Position numbers and translations under genes: made by a program
Shown: positions 3,641 to 15,182 of the stretch, piece by piece
Layout: every line of letters starts with the position of its first letter
Numbering within the stretch: the first letter of the stretch is position 1
IMG/VR virus record: IMGVR_UViG_3300033141_001655
Coordinates: 1 to 20,868 of that record
Direction: 5' to 3' (one strand)
DNA: 20,868 nt
From: a virus
Notes under the pieces: model-generated
The model's input: the letters and a program-made list of their open reading frames with translations, nothing else
Database searches by the model: none
Told to the model about the DNA's origin: nothing

Positions 3641-3841
3641 ATGGTAGAACCATTTGTACCAGAAAAACCAGAGAAATATGTAGTAGTGAAAATTACTAAG
3701 AAAGAGGCTGTATTGATCCAAAAGTTAAGAAAATATGCTTTTGGGAAGTTTGTAATACATAAGGCAAACGGTATTTTGACTAGAATTGAGATAAACGACA
3801 GCCAAATGATCGAGGAAGATGTGGAGATAGACTTGGGTTAA
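3641..3841 (+). CDS. Small DUF2292/YezD-like protein
   Basis: This encodes 66 residues. The core, from 'KLRKYAFGKFVIHKANG' to 'ILTRIEINDSQMI', resembles the short DUF2292 (YezD-type) fold, in which a helix leads into two strands reading 'FG.v.i...G.i..Ie'. The match is by eye and should be tested with a profile search. Function of that family is unknown. The ATG is one base after the terminase stop (TAA-T-ATG), with no SD, so translation is probably coupled to the terminase. An in-frame non-ATG start inside the terminase frame was rejected because this junction recurs at five other genes here. The acidic C terminus (EEDVEIDLG) is unremarkable. Confidence 0.6.
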   Translation: MVEPFVPEKPEKYVVVKITKKEAVLIQKLRKYAFGKFVIHKANGILTRIEINDSQMIEEDVEIDLG

Positions 3842-8680: not shown

Positions 8681-9007
8681 ATGCCAAAGAATTTATTTGA
8701 TACAGACGAAAAAAAGGAACAGGCAATCTCAGCTTTTGGAAGCCTTTTAGAACATCCCGGATGGAAGCTCTTAGTGCAAGTATTGGATCAGGACATAGAA
8801 TCCCTGAGAAATGATTTGGAAACAATAAAAGACGATACTGAAACAAAAGAGCAGATTGATTTACAGAGATACAAATTATCCTTTTGCAAGGAGCATAGGG
8901 ATAAACCAGCAGAGATGATTAAAAAACTACGAAGTGGAGATGAGGCGGAAGTACCTAATCCAGATCCTTTTCCAACCAAAGAAAGTTTGGTTAAAGAAAG
9001 GGCTTGA
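8681..9007 (+). CDS. Small acidic helical protein between portal and scaffold
   Basis: This encodes 108 residues with a long predicted amphipathic helix or coiled coil (WKLLVQVLDQDIESLRNDLE, then KEQIDLQRYKLSFCKEHRDK) and a proline-rich acidic tail (EAEVPNPDPFPTKE). Similar proteins, with 'HPGWKLL...LD..I..L' and a 'K......R..P..mI..L' ending, occur next to portals in other phages, but their role is not known; a head-assembly factor is plausible. It starts one T after the portal stop (TAA-T-ATG). Its own TGA stop (9005-9007) is embedded in the TTGACA -35 box of the scaffold promoter. Confidence 0.65.
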   Translation: MPKNLFDTDEKKEQAISAFGSLLEHPGWKLLVQVLDQDIESLRNDLETIKDDTETKEQIDLQRYKLSFCKEHRDKPAEMIKKLRSGDEAEVPNPDPFPTKESLVKERA

Positions 9008-9032
9008 CAAGATTATTTATAAGACCTACTAT
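9004..9032 (+). promoter_or_regulatory. Promoter of the scaffold-like gene
   Basis: TTGACA at 9004-9009, 17 bases, then TACTAT at 9027-9032. The -35 contains the stop codon of the previous gene. The predicted start near 9039 leaves about 16 bases of leader, enough for the SD AAAGGA at 9042-9047, seven bases before the ATG. Confidence 0.65.
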
Positions 9033-9734: not shown

Positions 9735-9764
9735 TTGACAAGATACTTTATAAGTTTATATAAT
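9735..9764 (+). promoter_or_regulatory. Promoter with leaderless start
   Basis: TTGACA at 9735-9740, 18 bases, then TATAAT at 9759-9764. Both hexamers are consensus. Five bases (aaatc) separate the -10 from the ATG at 9770, so the mRNA should begin at the start codon. Confidence 0.8.
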
Positions 9765-9769
9765 AAATC

Positions 9770-10432
9770 ATGGCCGCAAAACAAAAAGACAAAAAGAAAA
9801 AAGAAAAAAAGATAAAAGTAGAGAAGATAGGGGGTTCTAAAAAGGGATCTAAAGTAAAGGGATCTAAAGTAAAAAAGACTTCAACCAAAAAAGTAACTCT
9901 GGAATCACTCCGTAAAGAGGCAATTGTTCTTGGTATGCTCAAAAAAGATGTGAAGAAATTTGAGAGTAAAGAATTACTGCAATTAACAATCGATACTCTA
10001 AAAGCGGTTAAAGCTACTGTTTCAATTGAGGAAAAACTAGATCCAGTTGAGGAAAAAAAGGTAGAAAAGCGTTGGAGGGGTAAAGCCGCAAAACAAAAAG
10101 CATATTTCGATAGTCTTATTCCAGTTAGAATGTTGATTCCGTGTGTGGGAGAAGAAAAGCCCGGAGTTGTTGAAGAAAGACTGGTTGATGGAGTAATGCA
10201 AACAGTAGTTATTTCCGGTGCAGTTTGGAGCAAGAGCTTCAACGGATATAGGGTAACAATTCCAAAAGGTGTTTATGTCAATGTTCCGGGAGTAGATCCA
10301 GAAACAAATGAGATTGCCGGAGTAGCCGAAAATATCCAAGATGAATTTAGCCAAGTTCAAAAATCCAATCAACAATTTAGTATAGATAGAATTGATCCAA
10401 AAACCGGCAGACCTGTAAAAGATCAGTTGTAA
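9770..10432 (+). CDS. Basic-tailed protein preceding the major capsid protein
   Basis: This encodes 220 residues. Residues 1-45 are extremely Lys-rich (KQKDKKKKEKKIKVEK) and include a duplicated KGSKV pentapeptide. Residues 46-100 are helical (LESLRKEAIVLGMLKKDVKKF). About 118-190 form a beta-rich domain with FDSLIPVRMLIPCVG and 'FNGYRVTIPKGVYVNVPG', a pattern ('iNGyr..IkKGv.v.vPe.va') that I recall from small proteins next to N4-gp56-type capsid genes. It could be a minor capsid, DNA-contacting or head-completion protein; function is unproven. The basic tail might bind packaged DNA or the acidic scaffold. It has its own consensus promoter and no SD. Confidence 0.6.
   Translation: MAAKQKDKKKKEKKIKVEKIGGSKKGSKVKGSKVKKTSTKKVTLESLRKEAIVLGMLKKDVKKFESKELLQLTIDTLKAVKATVSIEEKLDPVEEKKVEKRWRGKAAKQKAYFDSLIPVRMLIPCVGEEKPGVVEERLVDGVMQTVVISGAVWSKSFNGYRVTIPKGVYVNVPGVDPETNEIAGVAENIQDEFSQVQKSNQQFSIDRIDPKTGRPVKDQL
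9841..9870 (+). repeat. Two exact tandem 15-bp repeats in the Lys-rich tail
   Basis: AAAGGGATCTAAAGT occurs twice head to tail (9841-9855 and 9856-9870), with a diverged part-copy just before it. The repeat is in frame and encodes KGSKV units, so copy-number change would lengthen the tail by five residues without breaking the frame. Confidence 0.8.
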
Positions 10433-10442
10433 AAATTGGTGC

Positions 10443-10472
10443 TTGACAGAAGATATCTAGCTGGTTGATAAT
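10443..10472 (+). promoter_or_regulatory. Promoter upstream of the capsid gene leader
   Basis: TTGACA at 10443-10448, 18 bases, GATAAT at 10467-10472. The predicted transcription start is near 10479. Only about 20 bases later the transcript would enter the terminator-like hairpin at 10498-10524. Confidence 0.65.
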
Positions 10473-10497
10473 ATTACTAAGTCGAGGAAAAAATCCA

Positions 10498-10524
10498 GAC
10501 GAGGCGAAAGCCCCGTCTTTTTTT
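10498..10524 (+). terminator. Intrinsic-terminator-like hairpin directly before the capsid gene
   Basis: Stem GACGAGGC (10498-10505) pairs with GCCCCGTC (10510-10517) with one A-C mismatch, around a GAAA tetraloop, and is followed by seven T residues (10518-10524). This is a good intrinsic-terminator shape. It lies downstream of the 10443 promoter and eight bases before the capsid ATG, so it may act as an attenuator, end the transcript of the preceding gene, or protect the 5' end of a processed mRNA. Confidence 0.75.
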
Positions 10525-10532
10525 ATTGAAAT

Positions 10533-11498
10533 ATGCCCGGACTAACTACAAGAACACAAATACCAGTAGAAGTTAATAACTTTTACGACAGATCCTTACT
10601 AGAAAGGGCGCTTCCCTTTTTAGTCCATAATAGTTATGCTCAAATTAGAGATATTCCTTCAAAATCTGGAACAAATGTTGTTAAATTCCGAAAATATGGT
10701 AGCTTAACAGCTACAACTACTGCTCTTTCCGAGGGTGTTACTCCAGCCGGCAATCAGCTTTCAGTAACAGATATTACAGCAACAGTCCTCCAATATGGTG
10801 ATTATGTAACCTTGACAGACAAGGTTTTGATGGAAACATACGATCCAATCTTAACCGAAACAGCCGATATTTTGGGAGAACAGGCTGGAGATTCACTTGA
10901 TCAGCTTTGCCGAAATGTTCAGATAGCCGGTGCTTCACAGCAGTTTGCTTCTACGGCAGTTTCAATAGCAACAGTTGGCGCGGCGATGAAGTTTGATAGG
11001 GCTGAAGCTAAAGAAGCAGTAAGAACCCTTAAAGGCAATAACGCAAAGCCAGTTACATCAATGGTTAATCCTTCAACCGGATATAACACAAGCCCGATCA
11101 ATAGGGCTTTCATAGGGATTGTTCACCCAGATACAACTTATGACTTAGATGATGCAACAGGTTGGATTCCAGTAGAAAAGTACGCAAATAAGAAAGATGT
11201 TATGCCCGGAGAGGTTGGATCACTTGCCGGAATCAGATTTATTGAATCTACAAATGCTTACACAGTTGCCGGAACTTTAGTAACCACAGTTTACGGAACA
11301 CTAATCTTCGGACAAAATGCTTATGCGCAAACCAGAATTTCAGGTGAGGCTCTTAAAAATATTGTTAAACCTCTTGGATCAGCAGGAACAGATGATCCTC
11401 TTGATCAAAGAACCACAAGCGGTTGGAAAGCGACTTATGTAGCCAAAGTCTTAGATGCAAACCTTATCATAGTTGTATATCACGCAGTTTCAAGCTAA
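10533..11498 (+). CDS. Major capsid protein, N4-gp56 family
   Basis: This encodes 321 residues of the HK97-fold coat protein. The N terminus and E-loop region show FYDRSLLERALPFLVH and ALSEGVTPAGNQLSVTDITA, then 'LQYGDYVTLTDKVLMET' and GEQAGDSLDQLCRNV, all characteristic of the N4-gp56 capsid family. Later segments FIGIVHPDTTYDL, and 'PGEVGSLAGIRFIEST' fit the P- and A-domain order. The length is normal, and no N-terminal delta domain for cleavage is obvious, consistent with a separate scaffold. The in-frame codon two before the ATG is TGA, so no upstream start is possible. There is no SD between the hairpin T-run and the ATG, odd for the virion's most abundant protein. Confidence 0.92.
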   Translation: MPGLTTRTQIPVEVNNFYDRSLLERALPFLVHNSYAQIRDIPSKSGTNVVKFRKYGSLTATTTALSEGVTPAGNQLSVTDITATVLQYGDYVTLTDKVLMETYDPILTETADILGEQAGDSLDQLCRNVQIAGASQQFASTAVSIATVGAAMKFDRAEAKEAVRTLKGNNAKPVTSMVNPSTGYNTSPINRAFIGIVHPDTTYDLDDATGWIPVEKYANKKDVMPGEVGSLAGIRFIESTNAYTVAGTLVTTVYGTLIFGQNAYAQTRISGEALKNIVKPLGSAGTDDPLDQRTTSGWKATYVAKVLDANLIIVVYHAVSS

Positions 11499-11508
11499 AT
11501 AAAATAAT

Positions 11509-12018
11509 ATGGAAGCACTAAAAAAGACAGAAGGATTCTCTCACCAAGCATTTATGGATATGTTTGATGAGTTGAATACAAATCTTAAATATCGGGCTTT
11601 AGTTGATCCCGGTATAGCCATTGGATCTAGTGATGCTAGTAAAATTAAAATTACCAATACTGTTAAATATCTACACAATGGTATTTTCAAGTCCAAATCA
11701 ACCGCCGAAACTGCTTTTACCGCTACGACCCATGATATTGAGGCTGATGCTGACGAAGTTCAGGAGGCTTGTTATCTTGTTTGTTTGAATGCGGCTGGGA
11801 CTGTTACAATCCACATGGGAGAGATTGCCAGTGGTTCTGGAAACGCTTTACTTCCTGAAATTCCCACAGGTTTAACTCCAATCGGTTATCTAAGATTGGC
11901 AGTTGAAGCAGGAAGCACAGACTTTGACGCAAGCTCAGATGATTTAAGCGATAGTCATTTAACTGACACTTATTACAGTTTTGGCTTCTTATCACCAAGA
12001 TTTGATGCGGCTCAGTAA
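11509..12018 (+). CDS. Beta-rich virion protein, likely capsid decoration
   Basis: This encodes 169 residues. After a short helical N terminus (FSHQAFMDMFDELNTNLKY) the protein is Thr/Ala/Ser-rich and beta-like (KIKITNTVKYLHNGIF, TAETAFTATTHDIEADADEV, YLVCLNAAGTVTIHMG) and ends with a 'P.GYLRLAVEAGSTDFDAS' segment seen in phage structural proteins. Its place directly after the capsid gene suggests a decoration protein or head fibre. It starts ten bases after the capsid stop in an A/T-only stretch without an SD; TAAAAT at 11500-11505 is only a weak -10 candidate, so I do not call a promoter. Confidence 0.65.
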   Translation: MEALKKTEGFSHQAFMDMFDELNTNLKYRALVDPGIAIGSSDASKIKITNTVKYLHNGIFKSKSTAETAFTATTHDIEADADEVQEACYLVCLNAAGTVTIHMGEIASGSGNALLPEIPTGLTPIGYLRLAVEAGSTDFDASSDDLSDSHLTDTYYSFGFLSPRFDAAQ

Positions 12019-12979: not shown

Positions 12980-13165
12980 ATGAACTATTGTAAAGAATGT
13001 GCCAGCGAATTTGAAGGAGAAGGTAATATTTGCTTGGCTTGTAAGGAATCAATAGAAAGAAGAAAGGTGGAAGCAAAGAAAGCAAAAGCCAGGAAAACTT
13101 CAAAAAAGAAAGCAAAAGCCAAGAAAGCTCCAAAGAAGAAAACTTCAAAAAAGAAAGGTAAATAA
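12980..13165 (+). CDS. Zinc-knuckle protein with histone-H1-like Lys/Ala tail
   Basis: This encodes 61 residues in two parts. Residues 4-21 form a Cys4 knuckle, C4-x2-C7 and C18-x2-C21, in an acidic setting (CKECASEFEGEGNICLACKE). From about 28 the protein is Lys/Ala/Ser/Pro-rich (KAKARKTSKKKAKAKKAPKK), closely resembling histone H1 and bacterial H1-like tails. It is likely to bind nucleic acid through the tail, with the knuckle as a protein or nucleic-acid docking site. An exact 20-base repeat (13093-13112 and 13138-13157, 45 bases apart) suggests the tail grew by in-frame duplication. It starts one T after the previous stop. Possible roles are DNA condensation in the head or host chromatin interference. 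Confidence 0.7.
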   Translation: MNYCKECASEFEGEGNICLACKESIERRKVEAKKAKARKTSKKKAKAKKAPKKKTSKKKGK

Positions 13166-13169
13166 CCCC

Positions 13170-13649
13170 ATGACTGTATTTGATGCCCTCATTGACCTAG
13201 ATGGCAACGGCAGACCTCTTTACGGATTACTTCCTTTTAGGGCAGTAAAAAGAATTACTTTCGCTGGTGGAACAACTCATGCCATTGGAGATCACGATGG
13301 AGATGGTGATCCTTTCGATATTTTCAAAGTTACCGGTGATGTTCAGGTAATGGTTATTGGTATTTGTAAAACTACTTTGGTTGGCGCGGCTACCCTAGAA
13401 GTTGGAGTAACTGATGCAACAGCTTCTATTCTTGCTCAAATTGCAGATGCAACGGACTTGGTAGAAAATGAACATTACAGCGATGCAACACCCACGCTTG
13501 CTGAAGGTAGAACTCCCCAAATTCACCCGATTGGTGGTGGGCTAGATATTATCGGAACAGTTGGTACGGCCAACATTACCGCCGGGGTGATTGACTTCTA
13601 CTGCTTCTGGCGACCTCTCTCAGACGATGGATTAGTTGAAGCCGCTTAA
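13170..13649 (+). CDS. Beta-rich virion structural protein
   Basis: This encodes 159 residues, Gly/Ala/Thr/Val-rich and acidic, with almost no Lys. Features include a possible Asp-rich turn 'DHDGDGDPFDIF' (about 42-53), which resembles a metal-binding loop, then strand-like segments (QVMVIGICKTT, AATLEVGVTDATASILAQI, ANITAGVIDFYCFWRPL). Proteins of this composition between capsid and connector genes are often decoration or head-tail junction components. I do not recognise a named family. AAAGG (13154-13158) lies 11 bases upstream of the ATG, a loosely spaced SD inside the preceding gene. The stop is followed at once by the promoter of the connector gene. Confidence 0.6.
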   Translation: MTVFDALIDLDGNGRPLYGLLPFRAVKRITFAGGTTHAIGDHDGDGDPFDIFKVTGDVQVMVIGICKTTLVGAATLEVGVTDATASILAQIADATDLVENEHYSDATPTLAEGRTPQIHPIGGGLDIIGTVGTANITAGVIDFYCFWRPLSDDGLVEAA

Positions 13650-13653
13650 TTAG

Positions 13654-13662
13654 TGTTATAAT
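13654..13662 (+). promoter_or_regulatory. Extended -10 promoter with leaderless start
   Basis: TG-T-TATAAT (hexamer 13657-13662), identical to the element before 1710, is followed by six bases (aatttt) and the ATG at 13669. A TTGAAG at 13636-13641 is only 15 bases upstream and is a poor -35. Confidence 0.7.
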
Positions 13663-13668
13663 AATTTT

Positions 13669-14427
13669 ATGGCCTCACCAGCAAAATTTGCAGCCTATGT
13701 AAGATATAAGACTAAGACTAACGCGACTACCTTTCCTGATGAAGAAATGCTGAGTTATATGGCATTTCGTCAAGAGGAGCTTGCACAGTCAATTCTTAAA
13801 ACTGATGAAGATATACTTTTAATTCCTCAAACAGCAGATCTAGTAGCTTCTTCAATAACTGCTAGAGAATATCCTTTACCTCAAGACATACTTTCCCGGA
13901 TCAAAAGAGTTGAGGCTCAACTTAACGGGACTGATTGGATCCCTCTAACAGAAATTGATATTACTCAGATAGATTCTTCTCTCGCCACAGAAGATGAAAT
14001 TACCTCAATGTTTAATAATTCTCAAGTAAGTAAGGGTAATCCTAATGGGGCTAGGTTCGATATTTTGAGAAAATCAATCTTTATATATTCCGGCACGATT
14101 ACGGCTACAACCGATGGGCTAAAAGTTTGGTGCAACACTTGGCCTACCCCCGTTACTGATCTATCTGCTTCTGCGGATATGAGCCAAGATCCTTCCACTA
14201 CCACGCATGGTATCCCTAGAGCGATGCACAAACTTTGGGCAACAGGCGTGATTATTGATTATAAAGAGAGCAAAGAAAAACCAATCCCTCTTAATGAAAC
14301 TGAATTGTATTATGAGAAAGATCTGCAAAAAGCAATCGCGACATTAAAGCACGGGAACCTAGATCGAGAAGTAATAGCCGAATTACCGCCTCCAAGTGAT
14401 CGTGGTAACGAGGGCGCTGATTATTGA
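13669..14427 (+). CDS. Putative head-tail connector / adaptor protein
   Basis: This encodes 252 residues. The helical N terminus (KFAAYVRYKTKTNATTFPDEE, then MAFRQEELAQSIL) is followed by a strand-helix core 'REYPLPQDILSRIKRVEAQL' with NGTDWIPLTEIDI, a 'YPLP.D....irv' pattern common in adaptor proteins that sit under the portal. The C-terminal part is helical (HKLWATGVIIDYKESKEKP, LYYEKDLQKAIATLKHGNLD). Adaptors of the gp6/P22 gp4 kind extend the portal channel and receive the tail. The location after capsid and before nozzle-like genes agrees. It has its own extended -10 promoter and no SD. The family is inferred from pattern and position. Confidence 0.65.
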   Translation: MASPAKFAAYVRYKTKTNATTFPDEEMLSYMAFRQEELAQSILKTDEDILLIPQTADLVASSITAREYPLPQDILSRIKRVEAQLNGTDWIPLTEIDITQIDSSLATEDEITSMFNNSQVSKGNPNGARFDILRKSIFIYSGTITATTDGLKVWCNTWPTPVTDLSASADMSQDPSTTTHGIPRAMHKLWATGVIIDYKESKEKPIPLNETELYYEKDLQKAIATLKHGNLDREVIAELPPPSDRGNEGADY

Positions 14428-14452
14428 CGAGGATAGAACAAGTATATACAAT
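14424..14452 (+). promoter_or_regulatory. Promoter with leaderless start
   Basis: TTGACG at 14424-14429, 17 bases, TACAAT at 14447-14452, then six bases (aaaact) to the ATG at 14459. The -35 contains the TGA stop of the connector gene, as at 9004. Confidence 0.7.
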
Positions 14453-14674: not shown

Positions 14675-15161
14675 ACTAACTGAAAAAATTAAGTCTTCTA
14701 AGGGTAGATTTAGCATTACAGAGAATGTAACAATTCTTGCTTTTGACAAAGACGGCAATCTTAAGGATGAAAGACATATTTCCAACCTTATAACTAACGC
14801 TGGATTTGCTGGTATGGCCTCTAGGTGCAACGGAGACGGCGCAGAAGCCGCTTTTACCTATATAGCGGTGGGAACTGGTACTAACGCAGCAAATGTTACA
14901 GATACAGCCTTACAAACCGAATTAGCGGCTGATGGACTTTCAAGAGCGGCTGGAACTGCCTCAAGAAAAACAACTGATGTAACAGACGATACCGCCAGCC
15001 TTACAAAAACATTCACAGTTACAGGTACTCAAGCTGTTACTGAATCCGGTGTATTAAACGCCGGTGCTGCTGGTGTACTTCTTTCTCGCCAAGTATTCGC
15101 AGCCGTCAATGTAGTTGATGGTGATTCGCTTCAAATTACTTGGGATTACGACTTCGACTAA
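14667..15161 (+). CDS. Phage structural protein (tail or decoration, beta-sandwich type)
   Basis: This encodes 164 residues. The order 'ISNLITNAGFAGMASRCNGD', then FTYIAVGTGTNAANVTDTALQ, LSRAAGTASRKTTDVTDDTA, FTVTGTQAVTESGVLNAG and LLSRQVFAAVNVVDGDSLQI matches a common phage structural pattern with 'NLitn.G', 'vG.Gt......T.L..e', 'ItEsGvfn' and 'll.rq.f..v.v..gdslqitw'. In other phages this sits among tail or baseplate genes; the exact role is uncertain. The GGAGG at 14656-14660 lies six bases before the ATG and decides the start over an upstream TTG at 14622. It overlaps the SH3/KOW-like gene, whose translation probably feeds into it. Confidence 0.7.
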   Translation: MNKLTEKIKSSKGRFSITENVTILAFDKDGNLKDERHISNLITNAGFAGMASRCNGDGAEAAFTYIAVGTGTNAANVTDTALQTELAADGLSRAAGTASRKTTDVTDDTASLTKTFTVTGTQAVTESGVLNAGAAGVLLSRQVFAAVNVVDGDSLQITWDYDFD

Positions 15162-15173
15162 CTCACTTGAGAT

Positions 15174-15182
15174 TGCTATAAT
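15174..15182 (+). promoter_or_regulatory. Extended -10 promoter with leaderless start
   Basis: TG-C-TATAAT (hexamer 15177-15182) is followed by five bases (aaaat) and the ATG at 15188. The nine-base element and the five bases after it are identical to those at 6191-6204. Confidence 0.7.

Follow-up and report, generated by a model that had tools for sequence, protein, structure and literature searches.

The leader of the major capsid gene in IMG/VR virus record IMGVR_UViG_3300033141_001655, which derives from an uncultured phage, raises the question of how a virion gene is expressed when a terminator is placed between it and its promoter. In the window, i.e. the complete 20,868-base record, a σ70-like promoter on the + strand (10443-10472; TTGACA at 10443-10448, an 18-bp spacer and GATAAT at 10467-10472) matches the consensus at 11 of 12 positions, a score exceeded by a single site in the window, and has its predicted transcription start at ~10479. 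It is followed on the same strand by an intrinsic terminator hairpin (10497-10518; 5 bp, an A.C mismatch and 3 bp, with a GAAA loop at 10506-10509) and a U-run (T7, 10518-10524), the predicted 3' end of a short RNA. The gene that would be gated (10533-11498, + strand, ATG at 10533) encodes the major head protein (PHROG 1357, E 4.7e-67; Pfam Phage_capsid_4, E 5e-10), and the best annotated phage capsids are 35-40% identical to its product. We know of no standard phage arrangement in which a self-contained RNA switch attenuates a capsid gene.

A preliminary description of this DNA had listed the promoter, a ~45-nt leader, a GC hairpin and seven T, all of which we found in place, and had argued that no second promoter fits between the T-run and the ATG, where eight bases indeed leave no space for one. 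Its conclusion, namely that expression of the capsid gene depends on read-through, antitermination or processing, or that the promoter instead makes a small RNA, is supported as well. Antitermination is favoured over an independent small RNA by the conservation of an antiterminator pairing that excludes the terminator, as described below. The predicted folding of the leader was stronger than that of 199 of 200 shuffled sequences (z -3.2). Promoter-like and terminator-like matches were not clearly commoner in the window than in its shuffles (34 vs 50.7 and 21 vs 15.2, respectively), and the case that the capsid-leader element is not a chance occurrence thus rests on its conservation. Further strong σ70-like promoters are located at 9735-9764, 9004-9032, 14424-14452 and 15154-15182, directly before or near the ORFs at 9770, 9055, 14622 and 15188, and these lack attenuators, which would limit gating in the window to the capsid promoter. 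One of them (9735-9764) is a perfect 12/12 match one gene 5' of the capsid leader, and its RNA would therefore also need to cross the capsid-leader terminator.

Conservation of the capsid leader in related phages

A search of IMG/VR with the capsid protein gave 29 loci, and nearly all of those with upstream sequence contained a promoter, a xxGAAAAACxx motif, a variable GC-rich hairpin and a T-run, followed by the capsid gene. An exact search with the terminator hairpin of the window had found no relative, because terminator stems drift; the conservation surfaced only via the capsid protein. In the window the motif forms a mini-hairpin directly before the terminator (10486-10496, + strand; GGA at 10486-10488, loop AAAAA at 10489-10493, UCC at 10494-10496). 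We searched with a descriptor of 3 bp, a loop of five bases of which no more than one differs from A, and 3 bp, followed within 3 nt by a hairpin of -8 kcal/mol or better and a T-run. It had a single match in the window (at 10486), its A5 case was absent from 626 kb of sequence shuffled to first order, and across roughly 1 Mb of phage loci its matches were, with few exceptions, just 5' of virion genes or at the entry of the late region.

The preliminary description had made its proposal depend on relatives not lacking both promoter and hairpin. This check came out in its support: the element was kept in 44 of 51 distinct capsid leaders of relatives (44/47 at a capsid identity of at least 50%), and a σ70-like promoter of at least 9/12 was present within 60 bp of 48 of 62 elements (77%, vs 14% of shuffles). 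The distance from the -10 box to the mini-hairpin is near-constant (median ~19 nt), which places the predicted antiterminator at the extreme 5' end of the transcript. Almost every element retains the T-run immediately 3' of the stem, and the elements are located 6-50 nt upstream of virion start codons, with the exact distance and the quality of the ribosome binding site differing between them. The seven leaders without the element comprise one with a degenerate copy, one which has diverged, and others in which the capsid gene closely follows the upstream gene. The degenerate copy (L147, ~13600-13716) has UGG-AAAAA-CCA and a terminator tail CTTAATTTTT 5' of the capsid gene, and would provide a natural test of the contribution of the U-run, while the diverged leader (L156, ~11500-11623) has a promoter, a strong long hairpin AAATACCCATG...CGTGGGTA and T8, with no clear A5 mini-hairpin. 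Rfam covariance models gave no credible match for the window, ten relatives and fifteen Bacillota loci, and no prior description of the element was found in searches of open-access literature.

Two mutually exclusive pairings

Neither the mini-hairpin nor the pairing that encloses it featured in the preliminary description, which had proposed looking for compensatory changes in relatives and had stressed the GAAA loop of the terminator. Such changes were found, in all three pairs of the mini-hairpin, while the GAAA loop is not conserved; the conserved loop is the A5 loop of the mini-hairpin, present in 43 of 44 leaders with AACAA in the remaining one. Its stem occurs as CGG/CCG, AGG/CCU, CCG/CGG, CUG/CAG, CAG/CUG, UGG/CCA, UGG/CCG, UAG/CUA and, in the window, GGA/UCC. 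In 22 elements, 100% of upper-stem cells were paired (shuffles 76.7 +/- 2.5%), and 11 cells had changed on both sides (1.1 in shuffles).

A segment a few bases 5' of the mini-hairpin is complementary to the terminator 5' strand of its own element and not to those of others, with a summed score of 551 vs 302 +/- 27 for re-paired elements (z 9.3; reached in 0/2000 permutations), and 155 vs 74 +/- 15 (z 5.4) for 17 representatives less than 50% alike. When this lower stem was included in its commonest register, 80.3% of cells were paired (61.3 +/- 2.8% in shuffles), and slid versions reached at most 39%. In the window the lower stem has only 3 bp, formed by GUC at 10481-10483 and GAC at 10498-10500 (both + strand), the latter shared with the terminator 5' strand, and the complete antiterminator reads GUC-GA-GGA-AAAAA-UCC-A-GAC. 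The lower-stem pairing encloses the mini-hairpin and is incompatible with a closed terminator.

RNAfold predicted the antiterminator with its lower stem in 61 of 62 elements, and predicted the terminator to be stronger in all of them, by roughly 3-16 kcal/mol, a difference which implies that a factor would be needed to hold the antiterminator. For the nascent window RNA, folding with 10 nt hidden in the polymerase, which is an equilibrium estimate per length and not a kinetic simulation, predicted that the antiterminator appears with polymerase at ~10510 and lasts to ~10526. The terminator base would close only later, when the U-run has already been made, and the two folds would thus be balanced over the U-run. 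A pseudoknot between the A5 loop and the U-run is conceivable and was also considered; in the leader with the AACAA loop, the U-run shows no compensating change.

A putative attenuator and the alternatives

We consider it fairly probable (roughly three chances in four) that the leader is a terminator/antiterminator attenuator which gates capsid (late) transcription, off by default and opened by stabilisation of the antiterminator. RNA polymerase would begin at ~10479, and the first ~20 nt would fold into the antiterminator hairpin, with the lower stem, a 2x1 internal loop, the 3-bp upper stem and the A5 loop, so holding the terminator 5' strand. Unaided, the stronger terminator would displace the lower stem and transcription would stop at ~10524, leaving a ~45-nt RNA; if something were to stabilise the A5 hairpin by binding, the terminator base would stay open and polymerase would read through into the capsid gene. 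Transcripts from promoters further upstream would face the same gate. General attenuator features are present, namely an intrinsic terminator between promoter and gene and a conserved alternative pairing that excludes it. The predicted attenuator anatomy is well supported by the promoter, the two exclusive conserved pairings, the nearly invariant A5 loop and the site before virion genes, and regulated antitermination of late genes is likely. We further infer that termination is the default and that a trans-acting, phage-encoded factor operates the switch; the stabiliser of the antiterminator is probably a phage protein.

An attenuator without a dedicated protein, in which a host factor (e.g. 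NusA/NusG), polymerase speed or the choice of start site sets the level of read-through, is unlikely. The predicted start in the window, just 2-3 nt before the lower stem, means that start-site choice could include or omit the antiterminator 5' strand, and the folding balance over the U-run fits such a timing device, but the invariant A5 loop and the covarying upper stem are unneeded for timing alone and suggest a binding partner. It is quite improbable that the promoter and complete terminator delimit a stand-alone ~45-nt small RNA acting in trans, with the A5 loop as a possible contact site and the capsid gene expressed from promoters further upstream or by ordinary leakage through the terminator: the antiterminator pairing, which covariation maintains, would have no role in a plain small RNA, conservation is limited to the short A5 motif with no longer targeting sequence, and the elements are placed closely before virion genes, with copies before several late genes in the same phage. 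That both hairpins serve to stabilise the capsid mRNA at its 5' end or to direct its processing, with termination as a by-product, plausible for the 5' terminus of an abundant late message and in keeping with start codons just behind the hairpin in several leaders, is also quite improbable given the near-constant T-run, an alternative pairing that would open the hairpin, and the variable start-codon distance and ribosome-site quality.

The putative attenuator was compared with known systems. The RAT leaders of BglG, SacY and LicT rely on one imperfect, internally looped hairpin that extends into the 5' part of an intrinsic terminator, with read-through decided by the bound protein. The capsid element has the same overlap of imperfect hairpin and terminator, but differs in its sequence, its A5 loop, its very short leader and its placement before virion instead of sugar genes. 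The CAT RNA-binding domain (PF03123) was found in 0 of 11 phage records (the control was positive in 4 genomes); these records are incomplete, and the host might supply such a protein. In ANTAR systems (EutV/AmiR) the antiterminator hairpin likewise overlaps the terminator stem, and two hexaloops carry A1 and G4 (PMC8934654), whereas the capsid element has one hairpin with a loop of five A and lacks the A1/G4 hexaloop; an ANTAR-domain search gave no match in the 11 records, and its controls matched nothing either. The element thus appears, from its sequence features, to act like a RAT- or ANTAR-type attenuator, yet lacks, in the 11 records, the CAT domain of the former and, in its loops, the hexaloops of the latter. 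The arrangement resembles that of lambda Q at pR'/tR' (and of AlpA and GafZ), where polymerase leaving a late promoter immediately encounters a terminator and has to pass it to express the late genes. The factor-binding element of lambda Q is part of the promoter, between -35 and -10. Factors of the Q type are loaded at the promoter DNA, where they remodel the polymerase (PMC11150451), whereas the capsid element has a conserved RNA antiterminator with copies before several late genes. Lambda N boxB in nut and the HK022 put RNA are also small nascent RNA hairpins, and the boxB pentaloop is purine-rich. BoxB has a ~5-bp stem and a GNRRA-type pentaloop, features which the capsid element lacks, with its 3-bp upper stem, AAAAA loop and direct overlap of the terminator strand.

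Other late genes, Bacillota prophages and a candidate protein

Copies of the element were also found before other virion genes, the names of which are our reading of the sequences. Two loci have it 5' of homologues of the window gene at 13669-14427 (L014, L126), four have extra copies 5' of other late genes (L042, L054, L023, L143), two contigs from Microgenomates assemblies have it before a terminase small subunit-like gene (L067, L097), one has it before a probable terminase small subunit (L056), and in a Chloroflexi assembly with another capsid family (L072) it precedes a scaffold-like gene and the capsid gene. The two Microgenomates contigs weakly suggest Patescibacteria hosts, and phage contigs can be mis-binned. 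On host chromosomes the exact pattern was present in 1 of 299 Bacillota and 1 of 380 Patescibacteria genomes, in both cases the seed itself, and a host housekeeping signal was rejected as the chromosomes of the two sampled phyla otherwise lack the exact motif. Most of 57 exact-pattern matches in genomes were attributed to chance, with only weak hairpins.

The same A5 element was found at the entry of the late region of some Bacillota prophages (L032, L038, L046, L113, L161), and AAGAA loop variants in two others (L164, L168). A commoner form occurs around XtrA genes (GUUCUA-CCAG-NNNN-CUGG-AGGAC...), the lower stem of which pairs with the terminator 5' strand. An exact search for this form returned 102 IMG/VR stretches with 97 distinct elements, 82 of these with a terminator, and an XtrA/DUF3954 gene was upstream in 50 of the 56 elements with 2.5 kb of upstream sequence. 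These leaders (GUUCUACCAG-NNNN-CUGGAGGACAC...GUGUCC plus T-run; L201-L302 from IMG/VR and L171-L200 from Bacillales genomes) are absent from Rfam, and are placed downstream of XtrA and 5' of late-regulator-like genes. In three Bacillota loci (L038, L161, L169) a DUF3954/XtrA-like gene ends beside the element. The XtrA/DUF3954-linked leaders thus share with the capsid leader a hairpin overlapping the terminator 5' strand at the late-region entry and, upstream, a gene for a small protein, but their commonest class has CCAG-NNNN-CUGG in place of 3 bp and A5. A mixed alignment of Bacillota and window elements was out of register (4-bp vs 3-bp stems), which makes its pair count unusable.

The leading candidate for the trans-acting factor, by guilt by association, is a weakly DUF2292-like protein of 66 aa (3641-3841, + strand). 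Members of its family have 58-78 residues, with E, R, G and R kept invariant, and their genes occur in 9 of 11 long records including the window. In two records (L072, G008) the candidate gene ends ~22-26 nt 5' of an element. The window has it at a distance from the capsid leader, placed between the terminase and portal genes. The curated cut-off of DUF2292 (PF10055) was not reached, with 2 of 11 members matching (best E 0.033), and the L038 DUF3954/XtrA-like protein scored E 0.008 in a tiny set only, so that homology between these families is at most a possibility. An AlphaFold model gave a helix and a beta-hairpin, for which Foldseek found no PDB match and no known RNA-binding fold. The candidate may be just a gene that these phages have in common, and gene order where early and late regions meet may also be maintained by unrelated constraints. 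An RRM-type RNA-binding protein (NLSW...GRSRGFGFVEM), to our knowledge unusual for phages, was considered as the factor and rejected, being encoded by five contigs only (L133:17215-17580, L137:4065-4535, L059:11331-11702, L141:621-1004 and L143:1551-1979). Separately, the structural genes of the window include one for a small protein with four cysteines, a lysine-rich tail and weak zinc-ribbon matches (12980-13165).

A tentative and rather doubtful extension is that this is a widespread phage late-gene switch, in which a small family of proteins (DUF2292-like in the phage group of the window, XtrA/DUF3954 in Bacillota prophages), the genes of which often lie immediately 5' of the late region, binds a nascent-RNA hairpin and opens the terminator that starts late operons, so that capture of an RNA hairpin would achieve what lambda Q does via polymerase remodelling. 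The capsid leader looks like a switch, apparently undescribed, by which late genes are turned on. If this is correct, it would represent a compact device for the timing of late genes in phages with unrelated capsids, and would provide a function for the orphan small proteins (XtrA, DUF3954, DUF2292-like) that many Bacillota prophages encode where their early and late regions meet. Ordinary Bacillus prophages would lend themselves to testing this, even though no cultured host exists for the phage of the window.
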